Shown here in pieces: positions 13,125 through 34,975 of a stretch of 46,553 nt of DNA. The notes under the pieces are model-generated. The model saw only the letters and a program-made list of their open reading frames with translations. It was not told where the DNA came from and searched no databases. The translations under genes were made by a program, and so were the position numbers. Source of the DNA: Bacteroidota bacterium (GTDB lineage Bacteria; Bacteroidota; Bacteroidia; UBA7662; CANHCV01). Numbering within the stretch: position 1 is the first letter of the stretch; every line of letters starts with the position of its first letter. Where the stretch lies: NCBI GenBank assembly GCA_947459245.1, contig CANHCV010000015.1, positions 1-46,553 of the forward strand. The letters run 5' to 3'.

Positions 13125-13138
13125 GGTTCGAATTTACA

Positions 13139-16753: not shown

Positions 16754-16761
16754 GGTTTTTT

Positions 16762-16865
16762 CTTTTTCTTCTTCGGAGCCCTCGGGTTGTAATCCATGCA
16801 CCGTTGTAACCAAAAATCGAATTGTTCTTCCAAGTCGAAGAAATCAGGTGGAAGGAAAAGAAATC
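16762..16865 (-). repeat. 104-bp direct repeat, left copy; remnant C-terminal tail of an unknown protein
   Basis: Aligned by hand, this matches 33613-33716 at about 92 of 104 positions, in the same orientation. It begins 8 bp after the ligase stop. On the minus strand it reads in frame as FLFLPPDFFDLEEQFDFWLQ then RCMDYNPRAPKKKKK. The right copy keeps this reading with mostly silent or conservative changes, so the repeat looks like the last 35 or so codons of a former gene convergent with the ligase. In this copy the stop is lost and the frame runs into ligase antisense. The parent protein was not recognised. The rest of 16754-16902 shows nothing else. Confidence 0.75.
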
Positions 16866-16902
16866 CGAACTGAAGTTTTTCGGGGAGGGTGAGGAGAATA
16901 AT

Positions 16903-17100
16903 TTATAAAGTTTTCAATTGAGTACCACAGTTGCGGCATCCTCCACCGCTGTCGCGCGTAATGTTATTGGTGCAACGAACGCCATTGCTTACGTTTTTGC
17001 ATCCCGATAAACCGCATTTTGGGCATCGATATAAAATACCTCCACAATTGGATCGACTTGTGTTGCTTGCTTTTGCAACATTACCATTACATGTAGCCAT
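16903..17100 (-). CDS. Small eight-cysteine zinc-ribbon-like protein
   Basis: A 65-residue protein without a signal peptide. Eight cysteines are at residues 4, 19, 26, 29, 34, 43, 55 and 58, including two CxxC pairs: CPKCG at 26-30 and CRNCG at 55-59. The arrangement suggests one or two structural zinc sites, as in zinc-ribbon or rubredoxin-like small proteins. The ATG at 17100 follows an A-rich tract typical of Bacteroidota start sites. A TAACTTTT box (17134-17141, one mismatch) lies upstream, overlapping the stop codon of the barrel-protein gene. It lies at the left edge of the giant-protein block, just inside the direct repeat. Function unknown. Confidence 0.65.
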   Translation of the reverse strand: MATCNGNVAKASNTSRSNCGGILYRCPKCGLSGCKNVSNGVRCTNNITRDSGGGCRNCGTQLKTL

Positions 17101-17138
17101 TTTTCTTTTTTTTAAAACGTTTAAAAATAAAGAAAAAG

Positions 17139-17801
17139 TTACATTCTTCCTCCATTGAAACGATGAAAAATAGAATAAGTCATTTGAACTGAAAAAACAG
17201 AGAAAACGGAATAGTTGGAAGACTTAGGAGAAACAAAGTTGCTATTCCTTATCCTTTTGATTAAAAAAGAAAGTTTTAACTCATTGCTTTCCATACTGCG
17301 ATTGTGATAGGCTGGACGAGCTCCAGAAAAGGTGATTCCATAAACCAAGGAGTTGTTCCATGGATTCTCTCCTAAATTTGAAAAGGACTGATTTCTATCG
17401 TAAATGAATTCACCGCCAATGGTTGGAGAAATTTCAAGTAACATTTTTGGCCTTCCGGTTTTCGAGAAATAGAGTGGAATTTTGGTGTCTAGAGGGATCA
17501 TGCCAATCAATGGAATAGACCATCTTTGAAAATTAGAATAGGGCTTCAAGGAATTGGTGTCACTGATAAACGAATTACCAAAGTATATTTTTTCTAATCC
17601 TAAATATCCGTAATTGCCCAGAGGTAAATGAATGCCAATGTTATTGTAGGTTCCAATTTTCTCTGTCGGCAAAACCTGGGGAATAGAAGTTCCCCAAATT
17701 CCCATTCCCGATTGAATGCCAACACCCCAACCAGATCGGTAAGCGACTTGTCCCTTGGCTAGCAAAGGAAAAATAATTGCTATTATAAAAAGTCTTCGCA
17801 T
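17139..17801 (-). CDS. Outer-membrane beta-barrel protein, unknown, co-operonic with PorP/SprF partner
   Basis: A 220-residue exported protein with signal peptide MRRLFIIAIIFPLLAKGQ. The mature part is Gly- and aromatic-rich (YRSGWGVGIQSGMGIWGTSI, YNNIGIHLPLGNYGYLGLEK), with amphipathic strands typical of an eight- to ten-stranded outer-membrane barrel. The last visible strand ends in MTYSIFHRFNGGRM. Its start lies 19 bp inside the 3' end of the PorP/SprF gene, so it is almost surely co-transcribed and possibly translationally coupled. Context suggests an accessory role in secreting or anchoring the giant surface protein, but no family is recognised and this is inference. Confidence 0.7.
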   Translation of the reverse strand: MRRLFIIAIIFPLLAKGQVAYRSGWGVGIQSGMGIWGTSIPQVLPTEKIGTYNNIGIHLPLGNYGYLGLEKIYFGNSFISDTNSLKPYSNFQRWSIPLIGMIPLDTKIPLYFSKTGRPKMLLEISPTIGGEFIYDRNQSFSNLGENPWNNSLVYGITFSGARPAYHNRSMESNELKLSFLIKRIRNSNFVSPKSSNYSVFSVFSVQMTYSIFHRFNGGRM

Positions 17802-18913
17802 TTTGTTTTCTTGTCTTGAAATGGAACATTTTTTCCATTGGTTCTCAATTTTCTATTCTTTCCTACAATAGGAAGCCTTATTCGATTTTTATACATCTCA
17901 CCTGGTCCATCACAGGTTACCCCATGAGGCATGGTAGCAAACCCAATTTCGTAGCTTGGGCCTAAGCCATTAAACCCAATCGCATTTGCGGTTAAATCGT
18001 AAGCGAAGCCAGCCTCAAAAGGATTTTTCACTTGTTTTAGCTCTTTTGCCTTGAAATTTTGAATTCGAACTGCCATTACTACCGCATCGGGATAATTTAG
18101 GTTCATTAAATAGGAATTCCATCGATAAAAAGCAGAAACAGTAAAGTAATCACTTTTTGCCATGATGCCGATTTGCCCCATTTCAAAACCTCCTTGTTTT
18201 TGTAAAATGAATTGAGGACTAACCGCTTGAATTAACCTACGGTATTCATTATTTGTTTGAAAGGTGTGCGAAAACGAACCGTGAAGCGTCCATGTGGTAT
18301 TCAAATTAACTTGATCGAAGCCAAGTAAACTTTCATCGGGTGAGGTAAGGTGCTTCACTGCTAATCCAATCAGCATTCCCTGGGTTTTATTGAAGTTGTT
18401 TCGATAAGCTATTCCAGTAGAAAAATCTGGTGCAAACCTGGAGTTAACAATAGGTAATGCTGCCGAAGGTTTGGTCACCCCAAAACGAGGATCCAATTGA
18501 TCACGATAGATTAGTTTGCTAAAATCAATGGTTCTATTGAATATGCTGGCTTGAAATCCGACATACAGCCTCGAGTTTTTACTCAATAACATATGGTAGG
18601 CATAGGTCCCAGTAAAAAATGTTCGCGTTAATACTCCATTTCCCTCTTCATTTCGATTCAGTGAAATTCCGTATGCACCATGAATGCCATCTTTTAATTT
18701 TTCATAACTAGCAAAGGCATATTGGTAGTTCTGGTACAATCTTGTCCATTGAGATTTATACATTAGACTGATTCGATCACAACCATTAGCTGTTCCCGCT
18801 AGGGCGGGATTAAATTGAATTGGAGCTAAATAATACTGCGAGAAAAAGGCGTCTTGAGCTGAAATCGACCAGCTAATTCCTGTCAAAATAAAAATAATCA
18901 ACGTTCTCATCAT
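17783..18913 (-). CDS. PorP/SprF-family T9SS membrane protein
   Basis: A 376-residue outer-membrane protein of the PorP/SprF family. The signal peptide MMRTLIIFILTGISWSISAQ is followed directly by the family hallmark DAFFSQYYLAPIQFNPALAG, then ISLMYKSQWTRL. The rest is barrel-like. In Flavobacterium johnsoniae, SprF is encoded just downstream of the giant adhesin SprB and is needed for its secretion or surface attachment. Partners of this type accompany type B CTD cargo. Here the gene starts through an ATGA overlap with the giant-protein gene, the same gene order, so a dedicated partner role is well supported by context. Confidence 0.92.
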   Translation of the reverse strand: MMRTLIIFILTGISWSISAQDAFFSQYYLAPIQFNPALAGTANGCDRISLMYKSQWTRLYQNYQYAFASYEKLKDGIHGAYGISLNRNEEGNGVLTRTFFTGTYAYHMLLSKNSRLYVGFQASIFNRTIDFSKLIYRDQLDPRFGVTKPSAALPIVNSRFAPDFSTGIAYRNNFNKTQGMLIGLAVKHLTSPDESLLGFDQVNLNTTWTLHGSFSHTFQTNNEYRRLIQAVSPQFILQKQGGFEMGQIGIMAKSDYFTVSAFYRWNSYLMNLNYPDAVVMAVRIQNFKAKELKQVKNPFEAGFAYDLTANAIGFNGLGPSYEIGFATMPHGVTCDGPGEMYKNRIRLPIVGKNRKLRTNGKNVPFQDKKTKCEDFL

Positions 18914-21900
18914 CGAATCATTTGAAATGTACCAACACGTTTTTCCAAAGAAGAATTACCAGCTTTTTCTTTCCAATCTTTTCCATTGAGGCATTTTGCT
19001 TCAATTTTATAAATGTAAGTATCTAAGGGAAGTAACTTGTCGTAGCCTGGTTTGAAATGATGTTTACCATCCCATCCAATATCCATCGGTATACTTCCAT
19101 CTGGATTTAACTGAGTGGTTCGATACAATAATTCTCCCCAACTGCTGTAAACCTCCAATTTATATGATTCAAATCCCGATCCAACAGCATTAAACAAATT
19201 GACCTCACTTGGGCCTTCCGGTTGAAATGCATTCGGAACCTTCATAAAGCAATCCACCCAGTTCAATCGAATTCGTTTTGTTATGGAATCAATACAACCA
19301 GTGGTGTCTCCGGTAACCACCAATTTTACATTGTACCATCCGGTATCTCGGTAAGCGTGTGCTGCATTCTTCCCGAAACCAACATTACCATCACCAAAAA
19401 ACCACTGAGAAGAATAAGGATCACCCTTGGTGCGATTCGTAAATCGGAAAGTTCGGAAGGGTAACCACTTCTCTAAACTATCAACATCAAAATTAGCAAT
19501 CGGTTTCTCATAAACCCGAATGAAAGCAGACTTCACAATGGTGTCATCACAACCAAACATTCCAACCGCCCTTAAGGTAACTGTGTAGGTTCCCGGTTTG
19601 GAGGTAAAGTAGGTCGAAGGCGAGAAGGTGCTGCTCTGTAACCCATTTCCAAAATCCCATTGAGCACTATCCGAAAACAAACTTAAATTATTGAATTTAA
19701 CACGAACCGTATCGCATCCTTTGGTTAAATCGGCAGTAAACTCAGCCTTTGCACGTTTACCGATGAAGATGATTTTTGAGGCACTGTCAATGCATCCGTA
19801 ATCCGATTGAACCAATAAAGATGACCAATATGCTCTTGGTTTACTGTAGAAATGACTTGGTGTGAAATTGGTATCAATCAATGAACTATCTCCAAAATTC
19901 CAGAAATAAGAGTTCGTTCCTGAGAAAATCTGACTCTGGTTCGTGAATCGAATGAGACCAGCACCTGTACAAATTCGATTGGTGTCGACGGAATACTGAG
20001 CTTTCGGTTTAGGACGGACATAGAAAGTCATGCTGTCTGTATCCGATAAACATAAGTATTGATTGGTGGTAATCAGAATCAATTGATAAGGTGTTGAAGA
20101 TTGAGGAATCGGATTGAAATTAGGATTGACACCAACAATATCTTTTACGGTTACGCCATTATTGGTTAAAATCCATCGATTTCGGAAGGACTGGTGTCCT
20201 CTGGAACTATCAACCGGGTTGAAAATAAATGGTTCACAGTGATTAGTTGCTATTCTGCCAAGTCTCGATTTTGGATTGTACCAAACAATTCTTGTTCCAC
20301 TTAATGTGTCCTTACAACCGTAAACCGAAGTAGAAATTAAGGTATCGAAATAAGTGCTATCCCTAAAATTCTGATTGGTAAATGTGAAGGTAGGACTGCT
20401 ACCATTCGAAGTCCATTGATTGATTTTCCAGAGGTAAGTCACCGGTTGTTGGCCAATGGTAGAATTCGTAAATGTCGTAGTAGTATTGGGACAAACCTGA
20501 TCATTGATGGGTGTAAATGCAGTTAATGGTCTCGGATGCGTCGTGATGCTCGTTGTCGCAGAATCTCGACAACCTCGTGCATCCGTCATTTTTACTTCAA
20601 AAATATAGGTGGTATCTCGGTCGCCCTTTCGATCAAGGAAGTTAACCAAAGTACTTGAAGAATTAGGGTTATTCAAGTTCATTAAATAATTCCCCAAACT
20701 AGAACTCCAAGTATAACTCGCACCGTTTTGCGTTCCTAAATTGGTTAAAGTTGTACTAAACGGTACGCAAAGGTTGGAGGCATGAGAGGCAATTAAAACC
20801 TTGGGTCTTGGTTTCATCCATAGATCTTTAAGTGCAGTATCGGTACATCCCGAAGCTGTAGTAATTACCTGGATTAATTGATACCTCGTTACTCCAACTC
20901 CTTGTGAATCTGGGAAATTAATAAAAGTTGTAGTTGATGTAGGATTGCTAATTGCAGCTGCCGGTTGGTTAACGATCCAACTCCATTGTACACCACCAAC
21001 CACAGCAGGCAATGCTCTGCCTGGAGTTTGATTGTAATTCAACGAAATAAATCCACCCGCACAAACGGAATCTATACCGGTAATATTGGCCTGTGGTTTT
21101 GGATAGGTTACAAAATTTTGTGTAACACTACTTGAGCACCCCGTAGTGGGTTGTACCACCCTTAAAGTAATGCTCTCATTGTTGTTGGACGTAGAATTGT
21201 TCGTCCAAACGGTTCGAATTCTTGGAGAAGAGGTTGGAGTACTAGGGAAAATGAAACTTCCATTGGAAGATCCTAAGCTCCAAAAATGGTTCAATAATGC
21301 CGGAGACGAATTCGAAGTTGCACCCATTTGAAGTGGCGAACAGCCCTGTAAACTATCTAAAACAAAACTCGCAACCGGATTGGGATGAGTTCTGAAAATA
21401 ATTGTTTCAGTGTCGGATCCACAATTAAACATCGAAAAAGCAACCAGTGAAACAGTAAATGAATCGTTTGGAGTTGGGAAGTTGTAGCCTGGGAAATTGG
21501 GAACTGCTTGGATTGCAGTAATGGGCGAACCGTTCACCAACCATTGAAAAGACACGTTGGTGGTAGGTAGGGTATTAACGGTAAAATGAGAGTTATTCAA
21601 TTGAATGGGCGCACAACTCGGTGTAACAAAATTGCTACTGAAACTAGAAATAGGTTTTGGATAAACGGTTTTGTTTCCAGAAATCGTGTCCTTACATCCA
21701 AAAGCCGAAGTGCTGAACAACGTGTCAAAATAATTGATTGGATTAATGGTGTTATTCCTGAAAGGATGAACAAAATTCACAGAAGTACTTGTCCAACTTC
21801 TGTTGGCTGAGTCAATTTTCCATAAATAAGTCATCGGCTGTTCACCAATGGAAAGATTGTTGTAAGTATAATTGCCCGGACAGATCGTTTCGATGAGGTT

Positions 21901-24900
21901 TGTATAATCATTCAACGGTCTCGGATGAGTTATGACTTGTGTTTGAGCATTATTTGTGCATCCCCTTAGGTCGGTCATCGTTACCGAATATCGGAAGGTG
22001 TCTAATCTCACCCCCTGTCGATCAAAATAGAATAAACGAAGGGAGTCTGAAGAATTCGGATTGAAAACAGAACCTGCAACCGGGGTAGAGGTTGTCCAAG
22101 AATACGAAGCTCCAATTTGATTGGAATCATTCTTGAAGGTAACCGTAGCAGGTACGCAAATCTCTTTTAAAGGATCTGTAAAGGCTATCACCGGAAGCGG
22201 CTTTAAAAAGATGGATTTTTCAATGGTATCCTTACACCCATGAATGGTTGAAACCTCAAGCTTTAAATTGTGCCTACTAACAAACCTGCCTTTTACGGTA
22301 TTGAATTGAATGGAAGAAGCAGAATCATTAGGGCGAAGGATACTTCCGTAGTTATTTGGATTGGATGCCCAAAACCATCGATAACTTTGAATAGCCGGTG
22401 GAATGGAGTCCCCATCAAAGGCAATTTGAATGGAATCTCCGGCACACAATGAATCCCTTGAAACAATTCCAGCGTGTGGTTTTGGGTAAATCTTTATGGT
22501 TTTCCAGCTGGTATCACTGCAACCCGTTAGCGGGTTTCGAACCATTAACCAAATCGTATCAATAACGGTGGTATCCGTTAAATTAACCCAGTTGGTGCCT
22601 AAGAGAGGTTTTGAGGTGGAGGAATAACCCGGATTAAAACTTCCACTCCTTCCGAGAATCCATTGGTAATTTACCACACCAGGAACAGCCCTACCTCGAA
22701 TCATGGTAAAGTGCGGAGTGCATCCCGAATCAATATCAATATCAAACTGAGAAATCGGATTGGGGTAGGTAAAGAAGGTTTTTTCAGAAGAATCGGCCGA
22801 ACAGCCATTTTTACTTTGAACTACCAATTTGATGGTTACTTGGCTATTTGGCAATGAAAATTGAAATCCAGGAAAGGCGGAATTGGTATTCGGACCTGAT
22901 ATTAAGGAATCATTGGCATACCAAGTGAAGGAAGAATTGGCATCGGGATATTGGGTTACTGAAACATCCGATGGCAAAATGGCAAATGGGGCACAATGAC
23001 TATCCGGTATGTTAATTCCGACAGTTGCTTTTGCTTTGGGATAAATGGTAATGGTATCGTAGGCAAAACCAATACATGGTTGATTGGTGTTTACTTTAAG
23101 TCGCACCAAATAACGTGTCGGATTGACCGAGCCGCTAGAACCGTAAAAGGTGGTATTGTAATCTTTTGAAGTACTCACCACGGTGAAATTCCCAGTTATC
23201 CCAGAATCTATGGCCCATTCATACGCCAAAACATTTTGCGGCCCTGTAAATTGCGTGGTATTGGTGAATTGTACTTGATGTGGGCCGCAGGAATCTTTTT
23301 TGGAAACCGTAAACTGGGCTCTTGGTCCTTCATAAACCCTTACATTCGTATAGGCCGTATTGCTACAACCCAAGGCATTGAAAACAACCAATTGAACTTG
23401 GAAAACTCCCCAGTTTTGGTACATGTGACTTACGGGCGAACCAATTCCGGTTCCGCCATCTCCAAAGTTCCATAAACTTTGAGAAGGAATGGAACCGGTG
23501 GAGAGATCATTAAAGGTGGCCAAAAATGGACTGCAATCATTCGGCCCTGCATTGCTGCCAATGATGGCCGTTGGGATGGGTTGAATGGTAATGTTTACCG
23601 TGGCGGTATCGTAACAGAAAATACCAATGGGTACGCCCATGGAGTCCAAAATTTGTCGGCTCACCACCAAAGAAATGGTGTAACTCCCAGGTGTGGAATA
23701 AACGTATTTCGGATTTGAACCCAAGGTGTTTTTCCAACCTGTACCATCTCCAAAGTTCCATTGGTAGGTGCTGGCATTGAGACTCGAACTGCCAGTCAAA
23801 ATCACCGAATCCCCTGGACAGAAATTCAAACGGTTGACGTTAATAACAGCTGTAGGTTTTGGGAAAACATAAACTGTATCAAAGAAGGTCGTATCCGAAC
23901 AGCCGTTAGACGCCCTCATGCTCACTTCAAAGGTTCCAACCCTTGAATATTGGTGATAAATAACATTTGCTCCCGGTTGAAGTGTGGTAATTGCTGTAGT
24001 GCCATCACCAAAATTCCAGAAAAAGGTTGTTGCTCCACTACTGGTATTAACGAAACCAACATTTCCACTTTCACAGTGGTATTTTTGACCAGAAATAACC
24101 GACATTCCCGCTTGAATGGTATTCGGGGTTATCAATACCGTATCACTCATGAAATCAACACCGCAAGCGTTGGTGGCAGTTAACTTGATCCAATACTTGG
24201 TAGGTTGGGTTACATATGGGTAATAGCGAATCGGATCAACGGTATTGGTTGTTGTTGTAAAAGATGCGGTATCCGAGAATTCCCATTGGTAAATGTTTGG
24301 CTCGCCACGGGAATTGTTAAATAGGGTAACAAACTTGGGAGCGCATCCTGTTTTCGGATTCGGAGTAAACAAGGCCGTTGGTTTGGGACGTACTGTTATG
24401 GTATCCCAAAGCGTATCCGAAGCACAACGGTTTTTAACAATCAATCGAACGTAGTATTTTTTATCAAACCCATTCAAAATATCAGCACTTAAGGTATTTA
24501 TTCCAGGATTGAAATTGGTGCTGGTAATTGGGGTGATTTGAGGCAAAACCGTATCCACATTACCAATTTCCCAAGCATAGGTTACTTGAATATTGGTGGT
24601 TTGATTGGTGATGCTTAAGTTCACAGGACCGCATTTTGAGGTGTCAGATAACGTGAACTTCGCTTTCGGCTTTTCTAAAACTTCAACTTGGAAGGTGTCC
24701 GTGCTAACTCCACATGGATTAACCCCTTTCAATTTAACCGTGTAAATTCCTTCTTTGGAATAGGAGTGATATACCGTGGTATCACGTGTGGTAATGAGAG
24801 AATCACCATCCCCGAAATACCAGGTGAACGTATCGATTGATCCGTAACTGCGATTAAAGAAAGTATCGGTAACAAAAGCTTGATTTCCCAAGCAGAAAAA

Positions 24901-27900
24901 GGTGTCTTTCACCGCGAATTTAGCAACCGGTCCTGGTCTAACAATGACCGAATCCCTAACATTCTCCTCGCAACCAAAATGAGTAACCACTTTCAAGTTG
25001 AAGAAGATGGTCGAGTCCGCGTTGAAAGGTGTTGGGAAGGTGAAGGAAGTGGTAGTATCAGTGGAAGTATTGCTCGAAGAAAAATTCCATAACAAGTTGG
25101 TCCTTAGAGTAGAAGTGTCGTTGAATTGAACCGTTAATGGGCCGCAACCAATCGTGGGCGTAAAGCTATAAACGGGCCTTGGTTGCGGATGAATCTTGAT
25201 TTCTCTTTTTGTACTATCTACACACCCGTTCGCCGAGGTGTTAAACAACGTAATCGTGTAAACTTCATCCACTAAACCCGTGTTTTTGGGAAATCCAAAA
25301 ATGGGTTGCGTGGAAGTCGGATTGGAAATGCTTACCAACAGTGAATTGACCGACCAACCAATTTGGGAAGTGGAATACAACGATTGGTAGCTAACCGAAG
25401 CCGTATCCGGTCCGCATTTGGTGGTGTCGTTAAACTCAAATCTCGAAATCGGACGGGTTGAAACAATAAATGATTTCGACACACTATCGATACACCCTTG
25501 GAACGATTTGGCAATGAGTTTTAAGGCATCCGTTCGATCAATTCCAGAAGTATTATCTTGGAAAATGAAGGTAGTGTTTGAATTGAAAAGGGTGTCTTTC
25601 CATGTATTTTTTCGAATGGATAAGTTAGTAGTACCAAAAGTCCAAAGCAAAGAGTCAATCCGAGGTGGAGAAAGTGGGATATAAGTAGCCAAACCACTAT
25701 CCGGGAAACAATATCTTGGGTTGGAAAATGAAAAATCAGGTCTTGGAAGCGGGAAAACGGTAAACGGATGTTCCACCGAATCTTTACAGCCGCTACTGGC
25801 ATCTCCAACAATCAGTTTTACGTTGTATTTCTGATCTACATTTCCGGAGTTAAGCCCAACCAAAGTATTGGTAATTCCGGAATTGTTACTACCGGTAACG
25901 CCAACAGGTAAGATCCATTGGTGTGAAACACCTGCAGGGGTGGATAAGCTTCTAACTTGAACGGAATACGGAGTACAACCCGAAGAATCATTAACAAAGT
26001 CGAAGAAAGGTTTGGGGTTGTCTTTGGTTTGGTAAATCCGTACCATTGTGTCGTTTTTACACCCCCATTTGCTTTGGGCTATCAATCGAATTTTCAAGGT
26101 TTGATTGGCCACTTGTAAGGTTTCGGTTGGCAAAGTGGTTCCGCTACTAATGGGAACCCACGTGCCCGAAACATCTTCTTTCTCCCAAATATTTCCTGAA
26201 TTGGTGGTGGGGTATTGCAGGAAGGTATCGATGGTAATAATGAAAGGGGCGCAATTGACGTATTTACTGGAAGAAAAGAATGCCTTGGCATCGGGTTTTA
26301 CCAAAATGGACTTTTCCAAGGAATCGGTGCAGCCATAATCACTGTGAATGATCAGTTTTACATACTGACTTGCAGTATCGATTCCTGGGTTGAAAAAAGG
26401 AAGCGTCGTGGTGTCAAATTGCCCAGTTGAGGTTTGAAAATTGTTTTTGGTCCAAGTTAAAGAAAAACGATTCAAAGACTTTTGGAATTGACTTGCCTGT
26501 GCATTAAAAAACAAAGAATTGGAATCACAAATGGAATCTTGATTGGTGATTTGGACATCCGGTAACGGATGCCAAGTGATTTGTCTGCCAATGGTATCAG
26601 CACATTGATTTTGGTTTTTCACCACCAAGAAAATGGAATCCAATCGATCAAATTGACCTTTGAAAATATTGGTGTTTACCCGTACAGCAATGCTATCTGA
26701 ACTGATTTTTTGAATGGTGTCAAGACCATTATTGGAGGACCAAATTCGTTGGATCCGATTAATGGAATTATCTCGAAGGGTAATGAATCCAGGAACACAA
26801 GAGGAACTGTCATCCAATTTGAAAAATGCTGTAGGACGAGCAAAATGAGTTAGTTGTACCACCGTGGTATCAGCACACCCAACCAAAGTTTTACTGATAA
26901 TGGTCACTCGATATTGAGCGTCCACACCTTGGTTTTCTCCGAAATGGTAGGTCATCCCGGTGGAAATAGCCAAGGTATCTATAAGCGGGAAATGATAAAA
27001 ATGGGTGGTGGCAATGGGAGGACTTCCCGCCGCAGCCGTAGGTGAAATGCTGATGCTGTTGAACGGACAGACGGCAGGATTGGGGATAGCAACCAGAGAA
27101 GGTTTGGGATTGATGACGATGTTTTGGATGGTTGAATTACTACACTGGAAGGTTCCACTTCCAACTTTTACCATCATTTTTACAGGGATAATGATGGGTG
27201 CATTGGTGGGGTTGTTAAACAAAACGGTAACCACCGTTGAATTGGAATTGGTATTCACCAAGGTACCGTAAGGTCCGAAATCCCAGGTATGAACGAGCCC
27301 GGGATCGGAGGTGCTGGTGAAAGTGATTGTTCTTGGGCTACAACCTTGTGTTTCGCTTGCAGTAAACGATGCTACCGGGTTGGGAATGGTTCGGAAAGCC
27401 ATGGTGGTGTCGGCATTTTTACACCCATATTTGGAAATTCCTACTAACTTGATGTAATTGATATCGTTTGCATTGGGAATCGTAGCTCCCGGGAAATTAA
27501 AAGTGGTACCCAAAAGGGTCTGCGTAATGGGTGGTGTTGAATTGATTTGGTACCATTCCTGTCCTGAATTGGCAAATGGGAAAGATAAAATCTTGGCCGG
27601 GTCGATAACAATGGGGAATGGAGCGCAAGCAACGGTGTTCAGCGGTGGGGTGATTCCCACAAACGAATTCGGACGCACAAAAACTTGGGTGGTATCGCTG
27701 TTCACACAACCAAAGGAACTGGTTGCTACCACTTTGATGGTTTCAAACGTGGTTTGTTGGGTTTGATTGAAAAATCGGCGAGTAAAGCTATCGATTGTAG
27801 CCCCAACGCTATCAATTCCATTGCTGCTCCACTGGTAAGTTGCAGGAGTTTGAAGGACCGATGTAGATGTTCGGAAAGTACTGGTATTGCTATCGCAAAC

Positions 27901-30900
27901 GGATGGGTTCCTTGGGGTTATTCGAATATCAGGCAATGGGTGCCAAATGATGTTTTTATAGACCGTGTCTCTGCACCCATTTAACGTTCTCGCCTCAAAG
28001 AAAATAAGATCATTCCGATCCACATTTCCAACAAACGTATTGGTGGTAATCGCAACATTGTTGTTGGTATTGCTCGGGTTGAACGTATTGAGAGAAACAT
28101 AGTCTTGCCAGAAATACAAAGAGGCATTTTGGGATGAATCTTCTAAGTTTATGATGCCCGGTACACAAGATGTGGAATCGGTTAACTTCAATAAGGCCGT
28201 TGGGCGATTATACAGTTGAATGGTGGTTGGAATAATTTCCTGACAACCATCACTGGTGGTGGCCGTTAGCGTTAAAGTGTAAGGAATCGAAGCATTGGTT
28301 TGGTTTTCGCCAAATCCAATGTTGACTTGTGTTCCAACAAAAGAAAAGTTTTGTGGGGTGGGGGAAATACTCCAATTGAGATTTGAAATATTTGCTCCAG
28401 CTGTAACGCTAGCAGTAAAGCTCAAAGAATTGTGCGGACAAACCCCGGCAGGAAGCGTAAAGGGCGCAAACTGCGGTTTCGGTTTAACAAAAATTAGGGT
28501 ATCTAAAGTGTCCACGCACGCGCCACCAACAATTTGACGAACCGAATATTGGGCTGCTGTATTCCCGTAATTGACCGGGAATTGTATGATCGCATTTCCA
28601 GATGCATCTGGGGTAATAACCACATTGGTAGAAGGATTAACCTGATAGGAAATGGTATTGACTGGAGCAAATTGACTTTTGTTGATGAAGTGAAGGGTGT
28701 CAGGCCCGCAAATGGTATCCTTGGTAATGTAAAAACCTGCTTTCGGCTTTGGAAACAAAGTCAATAGCATGTCCGCAGTGTCTTTGCAACCTTTGTTGGA
28801 AGTAACAATGAGTCGGAGGTTGGAAGTAACGGTAGTAGCTCCAGTTAGCGGATTAAGGGTAATCGTTGTTGAATTTGCACCCGGACTTCCCAACGTTCCT
28901 GGATGACCACTTGGAATCAGACTCCAAGCGTAGGTATTCAGGGGAATACTGCTGATAAGGTTGTTAGCTGTTGCCGTTGGAATTATTCCGGAACAAAAAG
29001 AAGCATTAGGTGAAATTTGAATGGATACGTTGGGTTTGGGATGAACAATTTGCTTGATGATGGACGAAGTACTCACGCATTTTCTGCTGAAAACCAATCT
29101 TTGATAAGCTACATAACCAGCAGTCAATTCACCTGGTTGATAGGTGGCTTTGGTTGCACCAGGAATATCCGTCCAATTGGGATTGATGGGATCGGTACTA
29201 ATCTGCCATTGATATTGATAAAATCCAGTTCCGCCTGTAATCGGTAAAATATCAACAAAACTCCACCCCGTATCTCCAGCACACTTTTCAACATAAATAA
29301 TTTGAATGTTTTGAACAATCCGTTGGAGTTTAATGATGTTTAAGGAATCTGAATAAGAAACACATTTACCGCTAAAAACCACGCGACGAACCGTAATGTC
29401 TGCAGTTATTGGTCCTAAAACAATATCCTTGCGTGTTGAATCCTGGATGTTACTCCAAACTCCATTGGCTAACTTCCTCTGCCATTGATAGGTGTAATTC
29501 CCGCAATCGCCTTTTTGAGGTATGCTACCCGTTATCAACCCTATGGGGTCATTTTCACAAACGGAGTCATTTCCGGTAATGTAATTGCTATCAATCGGAG
29601 GGAAAATGGTAATGTTTTGGATGGCCGTGTCTTTCCCGCATTCATTTTCAAAAATTAATTTAACTTGATACACCCTTTTACAGCTTCCAACAGCCGGGAA
29701 AGAAAAACGGGGGGTGTCAGTGTTTGAATATTGAACTGTCAGAGTAGTATCGTACGTCCATTGGTAGGTAAATGGACCGGTAGCTGCCCCATAATCGATG
29801 GAAAAACCAAAAATTCCACTTCCATTCAACTGATAATTTTGCGACAATAAACTGCCGCAAATAGAATCATCCTTTGCCAAACGAATGCTTGGTCGGCTTT
29901 TTACCGTAACGAATTTTGAAATGGCATCCCCACATAGGGCATTCCCAACCTGTTGCAAGATTTGATAGGTTATGGGGGTTTTGGTGGTATTTGCTGGAAA
30001 AGTAATGATAGGATTAGCAGTATTCGGATTGGAAATAACGACTCCGGTGCTTGGGGTAACCGAATAAATAAATGAAGTTCCAAATGTAGAATTATCGGTT
30101 ATTTGAACACTATCCCCTCCGCAGAGTAGTGTTTTATTCAAGTTGAAATTCGCTACCGGCCTTGGACTAACATTCAAGGTGCTGTTTACCGTGGTAGAAC
30201 AGCCATTGGTAGCGATGGCCAACAATTGAATTTGATTGGGTGTAACCACCGAAACATTGGTTGGACTTACGTTTAATATGGGGTTGGCAATGGTGGCGTT
30301 GCTGAAGCTAACATTGGTGCCTGAAAGAAGGCTCCATTGATAACTAGCAATGGATAAAGAAGGTGGGTTGTTGGTAGTAGTTACCGTGGAAGATTGTCCA
30401 GGACAAACTTGAGTTGGATTCAAGGTTACTGTAATGGAAGGATTTGCCTTGATTTCAATGGTGATGGAGTTAGATGTGCTAACACATGGAACGGTGGTTG
30501 ATCCTCCACTGCTTACAATTCTTCTAAAATAGTAAGTGCCTACTCCAAGTCCGGTAGGGGTGTAGGTGCTGGAGGTTGCTCCAGGAATGGCAGTGTAGTT
30601 GATGCTATCGGTGCTTGTTTCCCAAGAATAGGTGTACGTACCAGTTCCACCTCCCAGGGTTGGAGAAGCTACCTGCCCAAGGGTGGAAATCGTTCCTCCC
30701 TGACAAATGATTTGGGCATTCCCAATTTGGTTCCCCGTAATGGGCGGAATGATATTTACTGATATGGTATCGGACCTTGATGTGCAAACACCAGAAGTAA
30801 CGGTTCGTTGGTAATATGTTAAACCGGTCTGACTACTCGGGTTGAGGTTAATCCCCGTTTGCCCGGGAATGGTAGAAAGTGCACCGATGCTAGGTCCTGA

Positions 30901-33525
30901 CTGCCAAGTGTAACTGTAATTGGTACAATTTCCTTTCGTGGGTTGAGAACCGGTTAATTGATTGGGCGCAGCATTGGTACAAACCAAGGTTTGACTTGAA
31001 GTAATGGTATTGTCTTGAATGGGAGGGAAAATCCGAATGATTTGCGTTTGATTGGTCGAAAAACATTCGTTTCCATAATTTAAACGAATAAAATAATGCT
31101 TCGGGCAGCTATCTGCATTTTCAGGTAGGGTGAGGATTGGATTGGCTGTAGTTGCTCCTGAAATGGATGAGCCATTCCCTCCCGATAAAGTCCAAGAAAA
31201 AGTACGGGTAGAGCCAAAATTATTGTTAACGGTGTATTGGTGTCCAATCGAGGTTCCCATGGTTAAATTCTGAGATCCACAGTAATTTTGGTCAGCCGGC
31301 CAGGTTAAACTTGGCGGCCCAATGATGGTAACCACGGTGTCGGTGGAAGTAACACTGCATTCGGTGGTATCAATAAGGGTAATACGATAAACTCCGGGGG
31401 CGGTTAAAGTAAAATTGGGATTGAAGCTGTTATCGGTAGTTCCACCGTTAAAAACCACATTGGTTGAAAGGGTATTGGTGACACCATCACGAATTTCCCA
31501 CTTGTAGCGGGTAGCCGAACATCCTAAGATGAGGTTCGATTTATTATTAGCTTGAAAGGTTGCAGGAGAACATAAAGGAGTAGCGTAATTGAGATCAAAA
31601 TCTGCTTGAACAACGTCTTGGATACAAATGGTTTTTATTATCGTATCGTAAGAACATGAACCGGCACCATTAAAACAAACTAGTCGAATTGAATAAGTTC
31701 CACTATTGGAAAAAGTCAAATCAATATCCTTACATTCGGTTTGTAATGGTGGAGGGAAAGTAATTGGACAATTTTGACCTAGAATGGTTACTCCAATATT
31801 TGGAGTGACATCCCATTTAAAAAAGCCAATTGAATCACATCTTGAAGAAGTTCCAGAATTACGAATATTGTAACCTATATCACTAGTGTTATAAATTTTA
31901 ACTAATTGATTTTTACACGCATTTTTAGGTGCAGTAAAATTTGCTTTAGATGATTTGTTTAAAGTGATAGGACCTACCGTTGGATCTGTTACTCCACAAG
32001 CATTTTCAATTACCATTTTTACGTAGTATCTGTTTTGATTAGAATTAAAAATTGCTCCACAAGATGAATTTAAAAATAAATGAGAAAATGAACTTGGAGG
32101 GGGTTGAACAAAAGAAGTGTCAGGACTATTATCATTATATTGAATTCTATAGGTAGTGCCAGGTTGATTTTTAGACCAAATTTTTACGCCATTAGAATCT
32201 ATCAAAGAGGAATCAATTATGTTAAATGAATAGGATTTGGGAGCACATTCGCCAGTGGTATTTCCATTTAAGGTAATTCCTCCCCCAGGATTAGATCCCT
32301 TAAAAACTTGATGTATTGTTTCTGTTGTGCAATTGTTTGATGAAATGGTAAGATACCTAACCGTAAAATATCCCGATATCAGGTATTGGTGACTAGCAGG
32401 ACTATTAAATTGGGGCGGAGATGAATAATTATTAACATTGCCGTCTCCCCAATTAATAATAAATCGAGTTGTTGTTGGGTATATATTGAAATTGTTATCA
32501 ATTAATAAAATACTTAAATTTGAGTTTTTGCAATTTGTCCAAATTGTTTTATTATTTCGAGTACTAGTATCCCAATCCCCATTTGAAATTAATAATAAGT
32601 TTAGATCGCTATTGTAGCGCTCCCCAATTCCAACAGATTGCCCAGCCGAGATAACGGTACAAGGTCCTTTTCTAACCCTTACTTGAAAGTTTTTCGTGGT
32701 AGTGCCTCCACCAATAAAATCATAGGTTTGGGAGTAGGTATTCCCGGAAATACTTACCCATCCACTTCCTTCATTGATTTCATAATTGCAAGAAGCATCA
32801 TAGTTTGTTATCCTCAATGTCACACGGGAAGGAGAACAGGTTTGATTTTGGGTGAGTGTAAAAGTTGGGGTAGAAGGAAGAGCAGTAACCAAAACATCTT
32901 CCGAATTATCCAAAAATTTCCAAGTGTTGTTGATTTTGTAATAGAATTTTGCGTAATAAGTCCCCGAATTGGTGAAAGTATAAGAAGTTTGGGTGGTTGT
33001 GTTTAATGGAGATGGGTTGTGGGTATGAATGATTGTACTTGGTCTTTGAATAATTTCAACTTTTAAATCATCCAAAGAATCGATCGGACAAACATCAAAT
33101 CGGAAATTTACACTTTGGTTTTCGCAAATATTGACAGGATTGGAGGGTGAAATATTGCTAACAATTACATTGGAAAAAATTCTTTCTGCTGGAGTTGTTG
33201 AATCTACAGCACCATTGAAATAAACTTTGGCGTAGAACTTATAGGTTCCTATTGTATCAGTTGTAAATGTGTCAAGAAGAGAATTTGAAAAACCAGTTGA
33301 ACTAATCCTTACTTTTTTCGTTCCATTGGAAAAATCACCATTTCTATCAGAATAATTAAATTCAATGCTATCAACTTGACTGGGAGAGGTAAGGCTATAT
33401 CTAAAGAACGTTTTTTCTCCAAAACAAACTACGATATCAGATGCTGGAAATTGGAGTTGGATTGTTTGAGAATTCCCAACCAATGAAAACAATAGACCTG
33501 CAATTACAAATAAAAAATTTCTCAT
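18910..33525 (-). CDS. Giant PKD/Ig-repeat surface protein with T9SS type B (CHU_C) sorting domain
   Basis: A single uninterrupted frame of 4871 residues, roughly half a megadalton. The signal peptide is MRNFLFVIAGLLFSLVGNSQ. The body is a chain of dozens of PKD or Ig-like modules of about 80-100 residues. Many show the PKD core (WYFGDGDS, WNFGDGTT, WNFGDGTG, WFFGDGNV) and an early Cys (CxP) plus a late GCxDT Cys, suggesting one disulfide per module. Three pairs of multi-module super-repeats are visible. The C-terminal 110 or so residues (VPNAFQPEGPSEVNLFN, YSSWGELLYRT, DTYIYKIEAKC) are the gliding-motility-associated type B sorting domain (TIGR04131). A SprB-like adhesin or motility role is plausible. 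The PorP/SprF partner follows with an ATGA overlap. Confidence 0.95.
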   Translation of the reverse strand: MRNFLFVIAGLLFSLVGNSQTIQLQFPASDIVVCFGEKTFFRYSLTSPSQVDSIEFNYSDRNGDFSNGTKKVRISSTGFSNSLLDTFTTDTIGTYKFYAKVYFNGAVDSTTPAERIFSNVIVSNISPSNPVNICENQSVNFRFDVCPIDSLDDLKVEIIQRPSTIIHTHNPSPLNTTTQTSYTFTNSGTYYAKFYYKINNTWKFLDNSEDVLVTALPSTPTFTLTQNQTCSPSRVTLRITNYDASCNYEINEGSGWVSISGNTYSQTYDFIGGGTTTKNFQVRVRKGPCTVISAGQSVGIGERYNSDLNLLLISNGDWDTSTRNNKTIWTNCKNSNLSILLIDNNFNIYPTTTRFIINWGDGNVNNYSSPPQFNSPASHQYLISGYFTVRYLTISSNNCTTETIHQVFKGSNPGGGITLNGNTTGECAPKSYSFNIIDSSLIDSNGVKIWSKNQPGTTYRIQYNDNSPDTSFVQPPPSSFSHLFLNSSCGAIFNSNQNRYYVKMVIENACGVTDPTVGPITLNKSSKANFTAPKNACKNQLVKIYNTSDIGYNIRNSGTSSRCDSIGFFKWDVTPNIGVTILGQNCPITFPPPLQTECKDIDLTFSNSGTYSIRLVCFNGAGSCSYDTIIKTICIQDVVQADFDLNYATPLCSPATFQANNKSNLILGCSATRYKWEIRDGVTNTLSTNVVFNGGTTDNSFNPNFTLTAPGVYRITLIDTTECSVTSTDTVVTIIGPPSLTWPADQNYCGSQNLTMGTSIGHQYTVNNNFGSTRTFSWTLSGGNGSSISGATTANPILTLPENADSCPKHYFIRLNYGNECFSTNQTQIIRIFPPIQDNTITSSQTLVCTNAAPNQLTGSQPTKGNCTNYSYTWQSGPSIGALSTIPGQTGINLNPSSQTGLTYYQRTVTSGVCTSRSDTISVNIIPPITGNQIGNAQIICQGGTISTLGQVASPTLGGGTGTYTYSWETSTDSINYTAIPGATSSTYTPTGLGVGTYYFRRIVSSGGSTTVPCVSTSNSITIEIKANPSITVTLNPTQVCPGQSSTVTTTNNPPSLSIASYQWSLLSGTNVSFSNATIANPILNVSPTNVSVVTPNQIQLLAIATNGCSTTVNSTLNVSPRPVANFNLNKTLLCGGDSVQITDNSTFGTSFIYSVTPSTGVVISNPNTANPIITFPANTTKTPITYQILQQVGNALCGDAISKFVTVKSRPSIRLAKDDSICGSLLSQNYQLNGSGIFGFSIDYGAATGPFTYQWTYDTTLTVQYSNTDTPRFSFPAVGSCKRVYQVKLIFENECGKDTAIQNITIFPPIDSNYITGNDSVCENDPIGLITGSIPQKGDCGNYTYQWQRKLANGVWSNIQDSTRKDIVLGPITADITVRRVVFSGKCVSYSDSLNIIKLQRIVQNIQIIYVEKCAGDTGWSFVDILPITGGTGFYQYQWQISTDPINPNWTDIPGATKATYQPGELTAGYVAYQRLVFSRKCVSTSSIIKQIVHPKPNVSIQISPNASFCSGIIPTATANNLISSIPLNTYAWSLIPSGHPGTLGSPGANSTTITLNPLTGATTVTSNLRLIVTSNKGCKDTADMLLTLFPKPKAGFYITKDTICGPDTLHFINKSQFAPVNTISYQVNPSTNVVITPDASGNAIIQFPVNYGNTAAQYSVRQIVGGACVDTLDTLIFVKPKPQFAPFTLPAGVCPHNSLSFTASVTAGANISNLNWSISPTPQNFSFVGTQVNIGFGENQTNASIPYTLTLTATTSDGCQEIIPTTIQLYNRPTALLKLTDSTSCVPGIINLEDSSQNASLYFWQDYVSLNTFNPSNTNNNVAITTNTFVGNVDRNDLIFFEARTLNGCRDTVYKNIIWHPLPDIRITPRNPSVCDSNTSTFRTSTSVLQTPATYQWSSNGIDSVGATIDSFTRRFFNQTQQTTFETIKVVATSSFGCVNSDTTQVFVRPNSFVGITPPLNTVACAPFPIVIDPAKILSFPFANSGQEWYQINSTPPITQTLLGTTFNFPGATIPNANDINYIKLVGISKYGCKNADTTMAFRTIPNPVASFTASETQGCSPRTITFTSTSDPGLVHTWDFGPYGTLVNTNSNSTVVTVLFNNPTNAPIIIPVKMMVKVGSGTFQCSNSTIQNIVINPKPSLVAIPNPAVCPFNSISISPTAAAGSPPIATTHFYHFPLIDTLAISTGMTYHFGENQGVDAQYRVTIISKTLVGCADTTVVQLTHFARPTAFFKLDDSSSCVPGFITLRDNSINRIQRIWSSNNGLDTIQKISSDSIAVRVNTNIFKGQFDRLDSIFLVVKNQNQCADTIGRQITWHPLPDVQITNQDSICDSNSLFFNAQASQFQKSLNRFSLTWTKNNFQTSTGQFDTTTLPFFNPGIDTASQYVKLIIHSDYGCTDSLEKSILVKPDAKAFFSSSKYVNCAPFIITIDTFLQYPTTNSGNIWEKEDVSGTWVPISSGTTLPTETLQVANQTLKIRLIAQSKWGCKNDTMVRIYQTKDNPKPFFDFVNDSSGCTPYSVQVRSLSTPAGVSHQWILPVGVTGSNNSGITNTLVGLNSGNVDQKYNVKLIVGDASSGCKDSVEHPFTVFPLPRPDFSFSNPRYCFPDSGLATYIPLSPPRIDSLLWTFGTTNLSIRKNTWKDTLFNSNTTFIFQDNTSGIDRTDALKLIAKSFQGCIDSVSKSFIVSTRPISRFEFNDTTKCGPDTASVSYQSLYSTSQIGWSVNSLLVSISNPTSTQPIFGFPKNTGLVDEVYTITLFNTSANGCVDSTKREIKIHPQPRPVYSFTPTIGCGPLTVQFNDTSTLRTNLLWNFSSSNTSTDTTTSFTFPTPFNADSTIFFNLKVVTHFGCEENVRDSVIVRPGPVAKFAVKDTFFCLGNQAFVTDTFFNRSYGSIDTFTWYFGDGDSLITTRDTTVYHSYSKEGIYTVKLKGVNPCGVSTDTFQVEVLEKPKAKFTLSDTSKCGPVNLSITNQTTNIQVTYAWEIGNVDTVLPQITPITSTNFNPGINTLSADILNGFDKKYYVRLIVKNRCASDTLWDTITVRPKPTALFTPNPKTGCAPKFVTLFNNSRGEPNIYQWEFSDTASFTTTTNTVDPIRYYPYVTQPTKYWIKLTATNACGVDFMSDTVLITPNTIQAGMSVISGQKYHCESGNVGFVNTSSGATTFFWNFGDGTTAITTLQPGANVIYHQYSRVGTFEVSMRASNGCSDTTFFDTVYVFPKPTAVINVNRLNFCPGDSVILTGSSSLNASTYQWNFGDGTGWKNTLGSNPKYVYSTPGSYTISLVVSRQILDSMGVPIGIFCYDTATVNITIQPIPTAIIGSNAGPNDCSPFLATFNDLSTGSIPSQSLWNFGDGGTGIGSPVSHMYQNWGVFQVQLVVFNALGCSNTAYTNVRVYEGPRAQFTVSKKDSCGPHQVQFTNTTQFTGPQNVLAYEWAIDSGITGNFTVVSTSKDYNTTFYGSSGSVNPTRYLVRLKVNTNQPCIGFAYDTITIYPKAKATVGINIPDSHCAPFAILPSDVSVTQYPDANSSFTWYANDSLISGPNTNSAFPGFQFSLPNSQVTIKLVVQSKNGCSADSSEKTFFTYPNPISQFDIDIDSGCTPHFTMIRGRAVPGVVNYQWILGRSGSFNPGYSSTSKPLLGTNWVNLTDTTVIDTIWLMVRNPLTGCSDTSWKTIKIYPKPHAGIVSRDSLCAGDSIQIAFDGDSIPPAIQSYRWFWASNPNNYGSILRPNDSASSIQFNTVKGRFVSRHNLKLEVSTIHGCKDTIEKSIFLKPLPVIAFTDPLKEICVPATVTFKNDSNQIGASYSWTTSTPVAGSVFNPNSSDSLRLFYFDRQGVRLDTFRYSVTMTDLRGCTNNAQTQVITHPRPLNDYTNLIETICPGNYTYNNLSIGEQPMTYLWKIDSANRSWTSTSVNFVHPFRNNTINPINYFDTLFSTSAFGCKDTISGNKTVYPKPISSFSSNFVTPSCAPIQLNNSHFTVNTLPTTNVSFQWLVNGSPITAIQAVPNFPGYNFPTPNDSFTVSLVAFSMFNCGSDTETIIFRTHPNPVASFVLDSLQGCSPLQMGATSNSSPALLNHFWSLGSSNGSFIFPSTPTSSPRIRTVWTNNSTSNNNESITLRVVQPTTGCSSSVTQNFVTYPKPQANITGIDSVCAGGFISLNYNQTPGRALPAVVGGVQWSWIVNQPAAAISNPTSTTTFINFPDSQGVGVTRYQLIQVITTASGCTDTALKDLWMKPRPKVLIASHASNLCVPFSTTLTNLGTQNGASYTWSSSLGNYLMNLNNPNSSSTLVNFLDRKGDRDTTYIFEVKMTDARGCRDSATTSITTHPRPLTAFTPINDQVCPNTTTTFTNSTIGQQPVTYLWKINQWTSNGSSPTFTFTNQNFRDSTYFDTLISTSVYGCKDTLSGTRIVWYNPKSRLGRIATNHCEPFIFNPVDSSRGHQSFRNRWILTNNGVTVKDIVGVNPNFNPIPQSSTPYQLILITTNQYLCLSDTDSMTFYVRPKPKAQYSVDTNRICTGAGLIRFTNQSQIFSGTNSYFWNFGDSSLIDTNFTPSHFYSKPRAYWSSLLVQSDYGCIDSASKIIFIGKRAKAEFTADLTKGCDTVRVKFNNLSLFSDSAQWDFGNGLQSSTFSPSTYFTSKPGTYTVTLRAVGMFGCDDTIVKSAFIRVYEKPIANFDVDSLEKWLPFRTFRFTNRTKGDPYSSQWFFGDGNVGFGKNAAHAYRDTGWYNVKLVVTGDTTGCIDSITKRIRLNWVDCFMKVPNAFQPEGPSEVNLFNAVGSGFESYKLEVYSSWGELLYRTTQLNPDGSIPMDIGWDGKHHFKPGYDKLLPLDTYIYKIEAKCLNGKDWKEKAGNSSLEKRVGTFQMIR
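18913..19260 (-). other. T9SS type B C-terminal sorting domain of the giant protein
   Basis: Approximate span of residues 4756-4871. It has the hallmark order VPNAFQPEG, then NLFNAVGSGFESYKLEVYSS, WGELLYRT, GWDGKHHFKPG and DTYIYKIEAKCLNGK, ending in a basic GTFQMIR tail. This matches the CHU_C or type B domain that routes proteins through the type IX secretion system. Boundaries are hand-estimated. Confidence 0.88.
20281..23040 (-). repeat. Super-repeat pair Q inside the giant gene (two units of about 460 residues)
   Basis: Approximate units: Q1 at 21661-23040 (residues 3496-3955) and Q2 at 20281-21660 (residues 3956-4415). Landmarks in order are HCAPFAI versus SCAPIQL, FTYPNPISQF versus FRTHPNPVASF, DSLCAGDSI versus DSVCAGGFI, DRQGVRLDTF versus DRKGDRDTTY, MTDLRGC versus MTDARGC, GEQPMTYLWKID versus GQQPVTYLWKIN, and AFGCKDTISG versus VYGCKDTLSG. 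The clearest of the three pairs. Confidence 0.82.
25750..28480 (-). repeat. Super-repeat pair P inside the giant gene (two units of about 455 residues)
   Basis: Approximate units: P1 at 27106-28480 (residues 1682-2140) and P2 at 25750-27105 (residues 2141-2592). Five modules recur in the same order. Landmarks are VCPHNSLSF versus VCPFNSISI, FGENQ in both, RPTALLKLTDSTSCVPG versus RPTAFFKLDDSSSCVPG, WHPLPDI versus WHPLPDV, and SKYGCKN versus SKWGCKN. Directly follows pair R. Confidence 0.78.
28481..31322 (-). repeat. Super-repeat pair R inside the giant gene (two units of about 470 residues)
   Basis: Approximate units: R1 at 29900-31322 (residues 735-1209) and R2 at 28481-29899 (residues 1210-1682). 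Matching landmarks in the same order are YCGSQNL versus ICGSLLSQNY, LTGSQPTKGNCTNYSYTWQ versus ITGSIPQKGDCGNYTYQWQ, IPGATSSTY versus IPGATKATY, and PSTGVVISNPNTANPIITFP versus PSTNVVITPDASGNAIIQFP. Visible at protein level only; boundaries are hand-estimated. Confidence 0.75.
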
Positions 33526-33544
33526 GAATTTTTGTTGATAACTG

Positions 33545-33552
33545 CAAAGTTA
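33545..33552 (-). promoter_or_regulatory. -7 promoter box (TAACTTTG) for the giant surface-protein operon
   Basis: Perfect TAnnTTTG match followed by C, 20 nt before the ATG at 33525, giving a leader of about 15 nt that ends in an A-rich run. It would drive the giant gene, the PorP/SprF partner and the barrel gene. No -33 TTTG at standard spacing was seen. Confidence 0.65.
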
Positions 33553-33594
33553 TTTAGTTTTGTAGACGCTTTTTTGACTTTTTTTTATTTTAAT

Positions 33595-33606
33595 GGTTAA
33601 TTAACC
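33595..33606. promoter_or_regulatory. Perfect 12-bp palindrome upstream of the giant-gene promoter
   Basis: GGTTAATTAACC is self-complementary. It lies about 43 bp upstream of the -7 box, centred near -60 relative to the predicted transcript start, a common position for an activator site. It also contains the TAA stop of the minus-strand reading of the right repeat copy. Role unknown. Confidence 0.3.
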
Positions 33607-33612
33607 CCTCTT

Positions 33613-33716
33613 CTTTTTCTTCCTCGGAGCCCTTAGGTGATAATCCATGCACCGCTCCAACCAAAAATCGAAGTGCTCTTCCAAATCGAAGAACTCAGGT
33701 GGAAGGAAAAGAAATC
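33613..33716 (-). repeat. 104-bp direct repeat, right copy; remnant protein tail
   Basis: Same orientation as 16762-16865. On the minus strand it reads FLFLPPEFFDLEEHFDFWLE then RCMDYHLRAPRKKKKRG and a stop at 33601-33603. Most differences from the left copy are silent or conservative in this frame, which suggests it was coding when duplicated. It is joined at its right end to a ligase fragment through the shared AAGAAATC. Confidence 0.75.
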
Positions 33717-33779
33717 GAGGAAGAGGATCGGTTCACCAAAGCCAACACCATTAAGGATTTGAGGGCTTTGATACGGTAA
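33709..33779 (+). pseudogene. Decayed, internally deleted 3' end of the ATP-dependent DNA ligase gene
   Basis: Positions 33709-33749 match ligase 16521-16561 at about 36 of 41 bases, and 33741-33787 match 16715-16761 at about 43 of 47. The peptide reads EIEEEDRFTKANT, then IKDLRALIR and stop. The intact gene has EIEEVDKFIKANT and, 54 codons later, EANTIEDLRALIR. The fragment therefore lacks 162 bp lying between GCCAATACC and GCCAACACC, a short-repeat-mediated in-frame deletion. No upstream ligase sequence remains. The interval 33526-33817 otherwise holds the promoter, palindrome and repeat described separately. Confidence 0.82.
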
Positions 33780-33817
33780 GGTTTTTTGTTGATCAATTTG
33801 AAATGAACAATTTCCAA

Positions 33818-34975
33818 TTAGGAAATGTGCTTCAATCCCTGATCCAAATCAGCGATCAAATCATCCGCCGATTCGAGTCCGATGCTCACCCGAATTAAAT
33901 TGACCGGCAAACTTCCTTTTCGAATATCGTAGTACGCCAAAGCCGGCCAAATTAAACTTTCGTATCCTCCCCAACTCACCGCCATTAAAAAATGACGTAG
34001 CGACTCGCAGAATCGGGTGATCTTTTCGGGATCTTCGGTGGCCAATTCAATGGAGAACAGTCCCATGGGAATTTTGATGTCTCTCTTGGCCATTTTAAAT
34101 TGTGGATGACTGGGGTGATGCGGATAGTGAATTTTGGCGATTCCAGGATGATTCGCTAAAAAATCCACCACCTTTTGGGTGGTTTGACTTACCCGTTCAA
34201 TTCGAATTTCCAAGGTGCGTAAGCTGCGAAGCAAAAGCCATGAATTGAAAGGTGAAATCACCGCTCCCAAAGTCATCAATTCCCCGTAAAAAATCTTGGA
34301 AATTGCTGCTTTGGATCCCATGATGGCTCCTGCCACACAATCCGAGTGGCCCGCCAAATACTTGGTAGCGGCGTGAACCACCAAATCAATCCCCATTTTG
34401 GCGGGTTGCATGCCCAACGGGCTTGCGTAACTGTTGTCGATGACAGTTTTGATGCCTTTGGTTTTGGCCGCTTTGGCAATCTCCGCCACATCTTGAAGTT
34501 CAAACGTAAGGGAATTGGGCGTCTCCAAATAATACAACGTGGTGTTTTCTTGGGTTGCTGCCAAATACGATGCCGCGTTTTCACCGCTCACGTAAGTAAC
34601 GGTTACTCCAAAACGCAAAAGATATTCGTTGAACAACCGCATGGTCCAAGAATACGGATTCTGAATGCAAACCACGTGGTCGCCGGCTTTCACCACGCTC
34701 ATCACGGCCATGCTCACTGCCGCAGAACCACTTGCCACGGCCATGGCCGCTTCGGTTCCTTCCAACGCAGCTAATTTTTTGTTCAGAATATCGGTGGTGG
34801 GGTTGTTCCCCCGGGTGTACAACGGAATGTTTTCTTCATCGGAAACGGCTTTGGCCATTTCGGCCACGGTGGTGTACCGGAAGTTGGCCGATGCAATGAT
34901 GGGCGGACTCACGGCTCCGAAATAAGACGAACGGTCTTCGCCCAATTGATTCAGTAAAAAAGATAAATCATCCAT
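33818..34975 (-). CDS. Cys/Met metabolism PLP-dependent enzyme (cystathionine synthase/lyase-like)
   Basis: A 385-residue member of the trans-sulfuration PLP family (cystathionine gamma-synthase, cystathionine lyase or methionine gamma-lyase type). Visible elements are YTRGNNPTTDILNKKLAALE, then MAVASGSAAVSMAVMSVV, TVIDNSYASP (the PLP-ring Asp) and the PLP lysine in HAATKYLAGHSD (about residue 204). SVGGYESL, usual in the family, reads SWGGYESL, and the C-terminal RVSIGLESADDL is standard. The region that commonly reads YGGT reads PYSWTMRLF here, so the reaction specificity is uncertain. The start overlaps the asnB stop by one base (TAATG), so the two are coupled. Confidence 0.88.
   Translation of the reverse strand: MDDLSFLLNQLGEDRSSYFGAVSPPIIASANFRYTTVAEMAKAVSDEENIPLYTRGNNPTTDILNKKLAALEGTEAAMAVASGSAAVSMAVMSVVKAGDHVVCIQNPYSWTMRLFNEYLLRFGVTVTYVSGENAASYLAATQENTTLYYLETPNSLTFELQDVAEIAKAAKTKGIKTVIDNSYASPLGMQPAKMGIDLVVHAATKYLAGHSDCVAGAIMGSKAAISKIFYGELMTLGAVISPFNSWLLLRSLRTLEIRIERVSQTTQKVVDFLANHPGIAKIHYPHHPSHPQFKMAKRDIKIPMGLFSIELATEDPEKITRFCESLRHFLMAVSWGGYESLIWPALAYYDIRKGSLPVNLIRVSIGLESADDLIADLDQGLKHIS

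Follow-up and report, generated by a model that had tools for sequence, protein, structure and literature searches.

A 17-kb giant surface-protein block between a DNA ligase gene and a PLP-enzyme gene of a Bacteroidota genome, flanked by nested duplicated gene tails

A stretch of 46,553 nt from a Bacteroidota bacterium, hereafter the window, carries a 17-kb block whose insertion between two neighbouring genes of this lineage is well supported by comparison with related genomes. The direct repeats that flank the block are broken ends of genes, i.e., by-products of the insertion, and not evidence of present-day mobility. The reading proposed here as a whole, for which we regard the case as evenly balanced, is that a circular or tandemly repeated donor may have brought in a cassette through joining at microhomologies and that the flanking repeats would be the scars of this joining.

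Organization of the locus

The order of elements at the locus is L1 - T1 - block - T2 - L2 - PLP gene. This is a nested pair of direct repeats, and both outer ends are native. The elements outside of the block are as follows.

15206-16753, plus strand: L1, the intact ATP-dependent DNA ligase gene at the insertion site (start codon approximate; Pfam DNA_ligase_A_N/M/C)
16521-16552, plus strand: ligase segment that is the source of the start of the stub (copy at 33709; repeat search)
16715-16764, plus strand: ligase 3′ end with stop codon (copy at 33741-33790; repeat search)
16760-16893, minus strand: T1, left TfoX_N C-terminal fragment, about 45 codons (repeated part 16760-16865)
33604-33716, minus strand: T2, right C-terminal TfoX_N fragment; it has a stop codon of its own and is joined to the ligase stub at AAGAAATC
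33709-33790, plus strand: L2, ligase stub (16521-16552 joined to 16715-16764), 82 bases that share 89% identity with the intact ligase
33818-34975, minus strand: right flank, Cys/Met-metabolism PLP enzyme, the next gene after the ligase in congeners G001 and G002

A repeat search within the window shows that 94 of 106 bases (89%) are identical between 16760-16865 and 33611-33716, in direct orientation. The preliminary description of this DNA had counted about 92 of 104 bases in the same orientation, which is correct. The second-best 106-nt match to the T repeat in the window has only 48/106 bases identical, and in a genome-wide search, where the pair gives E = 1.4e-33, no third copy was found.

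Two further duplicated pieces abut the right T copy and had been overlooked. Positions 33709-33740 correspond to ligase positions 16521-16552 (28/32 bases), and positions 33741-33790 to the 3′ end and stop codon of the ligase at 16715-16764 (45/50 bases). The resulting stub is without 162 nt of the ligase, and the motif GCCAA is present at either end of the gap. The stub is open in the ligase frame up to the stop codon (EIEEEDRFTKANTIKDLRALIR); the length of the gap, 162 nt, is divisible by three. At its right end it runs unbroken into the native spacer and the PLP-enzyme gene that follow the ligase directly in the congeners. A ligase-end match on contig C7 of the same genome (38 bp, 84% identity) was set aside as a chance match; its flanks show no homology to any window protein.

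The genome is a draft of 104 contigs, and an assembly artefact, whereby unrelated contigs were joined through the repeats, was considered. However the copies differ by 10-11% and are not confusable by an assembler, and both flanks are syntenic with the congeners, so that an artefact is very improbable.

Origin of the 104-bp repeat

The preliminary description derived the repeats from the DNA-ligase locus. This applies to the ligase tail, which is also duplicated, but not to the 104-bp repeat, which by its coding content is the 5′-truncated tail of a TfoX_N-family gene on the other strand and is without ligase origin. In a single frame of the minus strand, both copies display a conserved protein tail, FLFLPPDFFDLEEQFDFWLQRCMDYNPRAPKKKK and FLFLPPEFFDLEEHFDFWLERCMDYHLRAPRKKK, that represents 36-45 codons at the 3′ end of a TfoX_N-family gene, the remainder of the gene being missing. 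In a comparison of the tail peptide with 60 relatives, 8 of the 12 non-self matches, including the top seven, are genes that independently match TfoX_N (PF04993). A profile made from TfoX proteins of other genomes was also compared with all reading frames of the window, and only T1 and T2 are above threshold (E 1.9e-6 and 7.7e-6).

No complete TfoX_N domain or intact gene is formed by either copy, the N-terminal part being absent from both, and no other PF04993 match is found in this genome (G000) or in G001 and G002. The possibility raised earlier, that the copies are two independent intact genes, does not agree with the 5′ truncation of both and the absence of an intact TfoX_N gene from the genome.

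The two fragments differ at their ends. T1 has no stop codon of its own; it is joined to the ligase 3′ end through TTCTTTTTC and reads into the ligase-end antisense sequence. The stop codon of T2 lies directly before the upstream region of the giant gene, and T1 reaches further than T2 at its 5′ side. Differences between T1 and T2 are biased to third codon positions (8/12, p 0.019, a test on small numbers). The GC3 values of the fragments, 0.53 and 0.59, are like those of the host and unlike those of the block; thus the block may have arrived without the TfoX tail.

The empty site in congeners

In both G001 and G002 the site is empty: the ligase is followed, after 42 bp, by the same PLP gene, with the flanking genes in the same order. 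On contig C102 of G002 the genes of window positions 7269-16753 stand in the same order and are followed by the PLP gene, and on contig C22 of G001 the ligase end is followed by the PLP gene and those after it; neither contig has the block. The ligase orthologues at the empty site are 74-78% identical to that of the window. The comparison rests on these two congeners and on a contig from a draft of 104 contigs; in a ligase scan of genome contigs (GTDB r220) no further congener was found, only distant ligases.

Over the shared region the identity between G001 and G002 is 94%, and that of the two to this genome is 75-82%. Since the two are near kin and both are distant from this genome, presence and absence alone give no polarity. 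The stub provides it. At 13 sites L2 has the same base as L1 and differs from both congeners, and at only 2 sites does L2 agree with the congeners and differ from L1. The stub thus groups with the ligase of its own genome, which places the duplication after the split and the insertion in this lineage.

The same sites bear on the reverse reading, that the block is ancestral and was lost in the congeners through recombination between the ligase 3′-end repeats, restoring a clean ligase - PLP junction. Such a deletion would yield exactly the arrangement of G001 and G002, and since these are sisters a single loss would be enough. However the 13 shared sites show a repeat that arose after the split, and the composition of the block is foreign, so that loss is improbable. 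GC3 in the block is 0.33-0.38, versus 0.42-0.59 (mean 0.50) in 18 native genes (Mann-Whitney p 0.0015). The earlier suggestion that the block arrived by duplication or integration is therefore borne out by two congeners without the block at the syntenic site, by the foreign-like GC3 and by a stub that postdates the split.

Genes of the block

Four genes only are found in the interval between the repeats:

16903-17100, minus strand: small Cys-rich protein, 65 aa, with zinc-ribbon-like spacing
17139-17801, minus strand: 220-aa protein
17783-18913, minus strand: PorP/SprF-family type IX secretion system (T9SS) outer-membrane protein (PF11751 E 1.9e-34; TIGR03519 E 8.7e-40)
18910-33525, minus strand: giant PKD-repeat protein, 4871 aa (PKD_4 E 2.8e-66)

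These are the same four genes as listed in the preliminary description; its label of an outer-membrane barrel for the 220-aa protein was only a guess and is without family support, no match having been obtained in Pfam and NCBIfam searches. The 65-aa Cys-rich peptide has no relatives in 60 genomes. The PorP/SprF assignment of 17783-18913 is certain on the strength of its profile matches (TIGR03519, 137 bits vs a cut-off of 90.55).

The C terminus of the giant protein shows a weak match to CHU_C (PF13585, T9SS type B), with E 4.4e-4 and 20.8 bits, under the Pfam cut-off of 27. It resembles the C termini of giant proteins in G001 and G004 that are likewise followed by porP; over the last 241 aa it is 41% identical to the G001 protein. 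An NCBIfam ZirU match of the giant protein was set aside (22 bits vs a cut-off of 100). SprA (SprA_N) is present in G000, G001 and G002, and thus the host has a T9SS. According to published work, type B CTD proteins are anchored at the surface in association with PorP-like proteins, and sprB adjoins sprF (PMC9143113). Because of these protein families the block is most likely a cell-surface adhesin cassette, in which the long protein is predicted to be secreted by the host T9SS and held by its PorP-like partner.

The G001 locus in which porP follows the giant-protein gene is also GC-poor (contig C15, L069:9839-15255). A neighbour gene of that locus (L069:6583-7683) is found in G002 and not in G000. 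The contig ends inside the giant gene, and no second pair of filled and empty sites can be read there.

Proposed mode of entry

Both novel joins lie at microhomologies of 8-9 nt: the right T copy passes through 8 bases, AAGAAATC, into the ligase stub, and L1 and T1 share TTCTTTTT(C). The polyT junction is of low complexity. On the right side the order of the two tails, T and L, is reversed, and this nested order is produced neither by a single tandem duplication nor by a simple insertion with target duplication. Given the nested order, the microhomology at both joins and the absence of a recombinase, the best fit is a circular or tandem donor that was joined at microhomologies, and it is on these grounds that we infer such a donor and such a joining mechanism.

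The steps would be as follows. A GC-poor giant-protein cassette would have been joined between the ligase and the PLP-enzyme gene in the lineage of this species. The donor may have been circular or tandemly repeated DNA that carried the block and a TfoX tail. Its joining would be illegitimate and mediated by microhomology, with the donor read slightly more than once around. Rejoining upstream of the exit point in L would then duplicate both the donor end (T) and the target end (L) in one step. The 162-nt deletion inside the stub, a further one, is likewise at a short repeat.

The divergence of the duplicated pieces is nearly equal, 12/106 (11.3%) for T and 9/82 (11.0%) for L, which agrees with a single event. 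Counting against a single event is the third-position bias of T1/T2, a hint that the tails diverged while still coding. The main rival is an entry in two steps, in which a host-type TfoX tail was first joined into the ligase end and a Campbell-type homologous recombination in T followed, with a circle or transforming DNA that carried the block and its own copy of TfoX, to give T1 - block - T2. Two steps would explain why T2 stops naturally by the giant gene while T1 extends further 5′, and a divergence of the two TfoX copies while they were genes would agree with both the third-position bias and the host-like GC3 of T. However an extra event is required, the ligase end must already have held a 106-bp piece of TfoX, and the near-equal divergence of the T and L pairs becomes a coincidence. 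We infer the choice between one step and two from small numbers, and hold the two-step entry to be possible but rather doubtful.

The donor itself was not found, and no examined genome has a TfoX gene beside a ligase, porP or giant gene. PorP relatives at E<=1e-45 are absent from 395 genomes of the class, and neither a close PorP relative nor a donor was found in 21 genomes of the order, the 395 of the class, or viral contigs.

Comparison with known systems

The block resembles gene pairs of the sprB-sprF type of Flavobacterium johnsoniae (PMC9143113), in which a T9SS adhesin with a type B CTD has a PorP/SprF-family partner next to it. In the block, too, the giant secreted-protein gene and a PorP/SprF gene overlap on one strand, and SprA is present in the host; the same pairing is seen in G001 and G004. 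Unlike sprB-sprF pairs, the block has PKD repeats, the 220-aa protein of unknown family and the Cys-rich peptide. The nearest relatives found for its PorP share only about 30% identity with it.

In being present or absent between syntenic flanks, without mobility genes and with short homologies at its joins, the block is similar to the variable segments attributed to illegitimate or homology-facilitated illegitimate recombination, of which about 10% at the microdiversity loci studied have direct-repeat flanks (PMC2884548). Those segments are short, whereas the block spans 17 kb and displays a nested duplication of donor-side and target-side gene tails. The components are thus of known kinds, and the nested scar is the unusual part.

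A third comparison concerns mobile elements. Many integrating elements insert at a gene's 3′ end and leave that gene end duplicated. Genomic islands may integrate at a gene 3′ end by a tyrosine recombinase, duplicating the gene end at the far side. The block was likewise inserted at a gene 3′ end that is duplicated on its far side. However no integrase or transposase is found among its four genes, no attachment core is shared, the junctions are at unrelated microhomologies and the stub is internally deleted. A mobile element of unknown type that is or recently was active, and for which the TfoX or ligase tails at a conserved gene's 3′ end would serve as attachment sites, is hardly likely. The divergence between the two copies is 10-11%, the repeat is coding debris whose family occurs elsewhere outside such a context and has no further copy in the genome, and the PorP protein is without relatives in viral contigs. 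The longest identical runs are 22 bp in the TfoX pair and 14 bp in the 50-bp ligase pair, and the earlier proposal that recombination between the copies could lose or amplify the block is not supported by the evidence. Flanking direct repeats without an integrase thus need not indicate a mobile element, as in this case, where they consist of gene debris that was duplicated.

With both of its joins legible, the locus provides a clean pair of filled and empty sites for the acquisition of a very large surface-protein gene, and such a pair lets the route of these genes into Bacteroidota genomes be studied from sequence. It might be speculated, with little confidence, that giant T9SS adhesin-PorP cassettes spread between Bacteroidota without dedicated mobility genes, as circles or concatemers joined by microhomology into gene ends. 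If so, nested duplications of donor and target would be a recognisable signature of such spread.

Other loci

A second insertion is present at positions 38550-41354 of the window, between obgE and the PEP carboxykinase gene, which in G001 are about 145 nt apart. It has two open reading frames (649 and 283 aa) and about 25% GC. There is no Pfam match over the cut-off and no PADLOC match for either open reading frame, and the 283-aa sequence ends in a weak PBCV_basic_adap-like motif.
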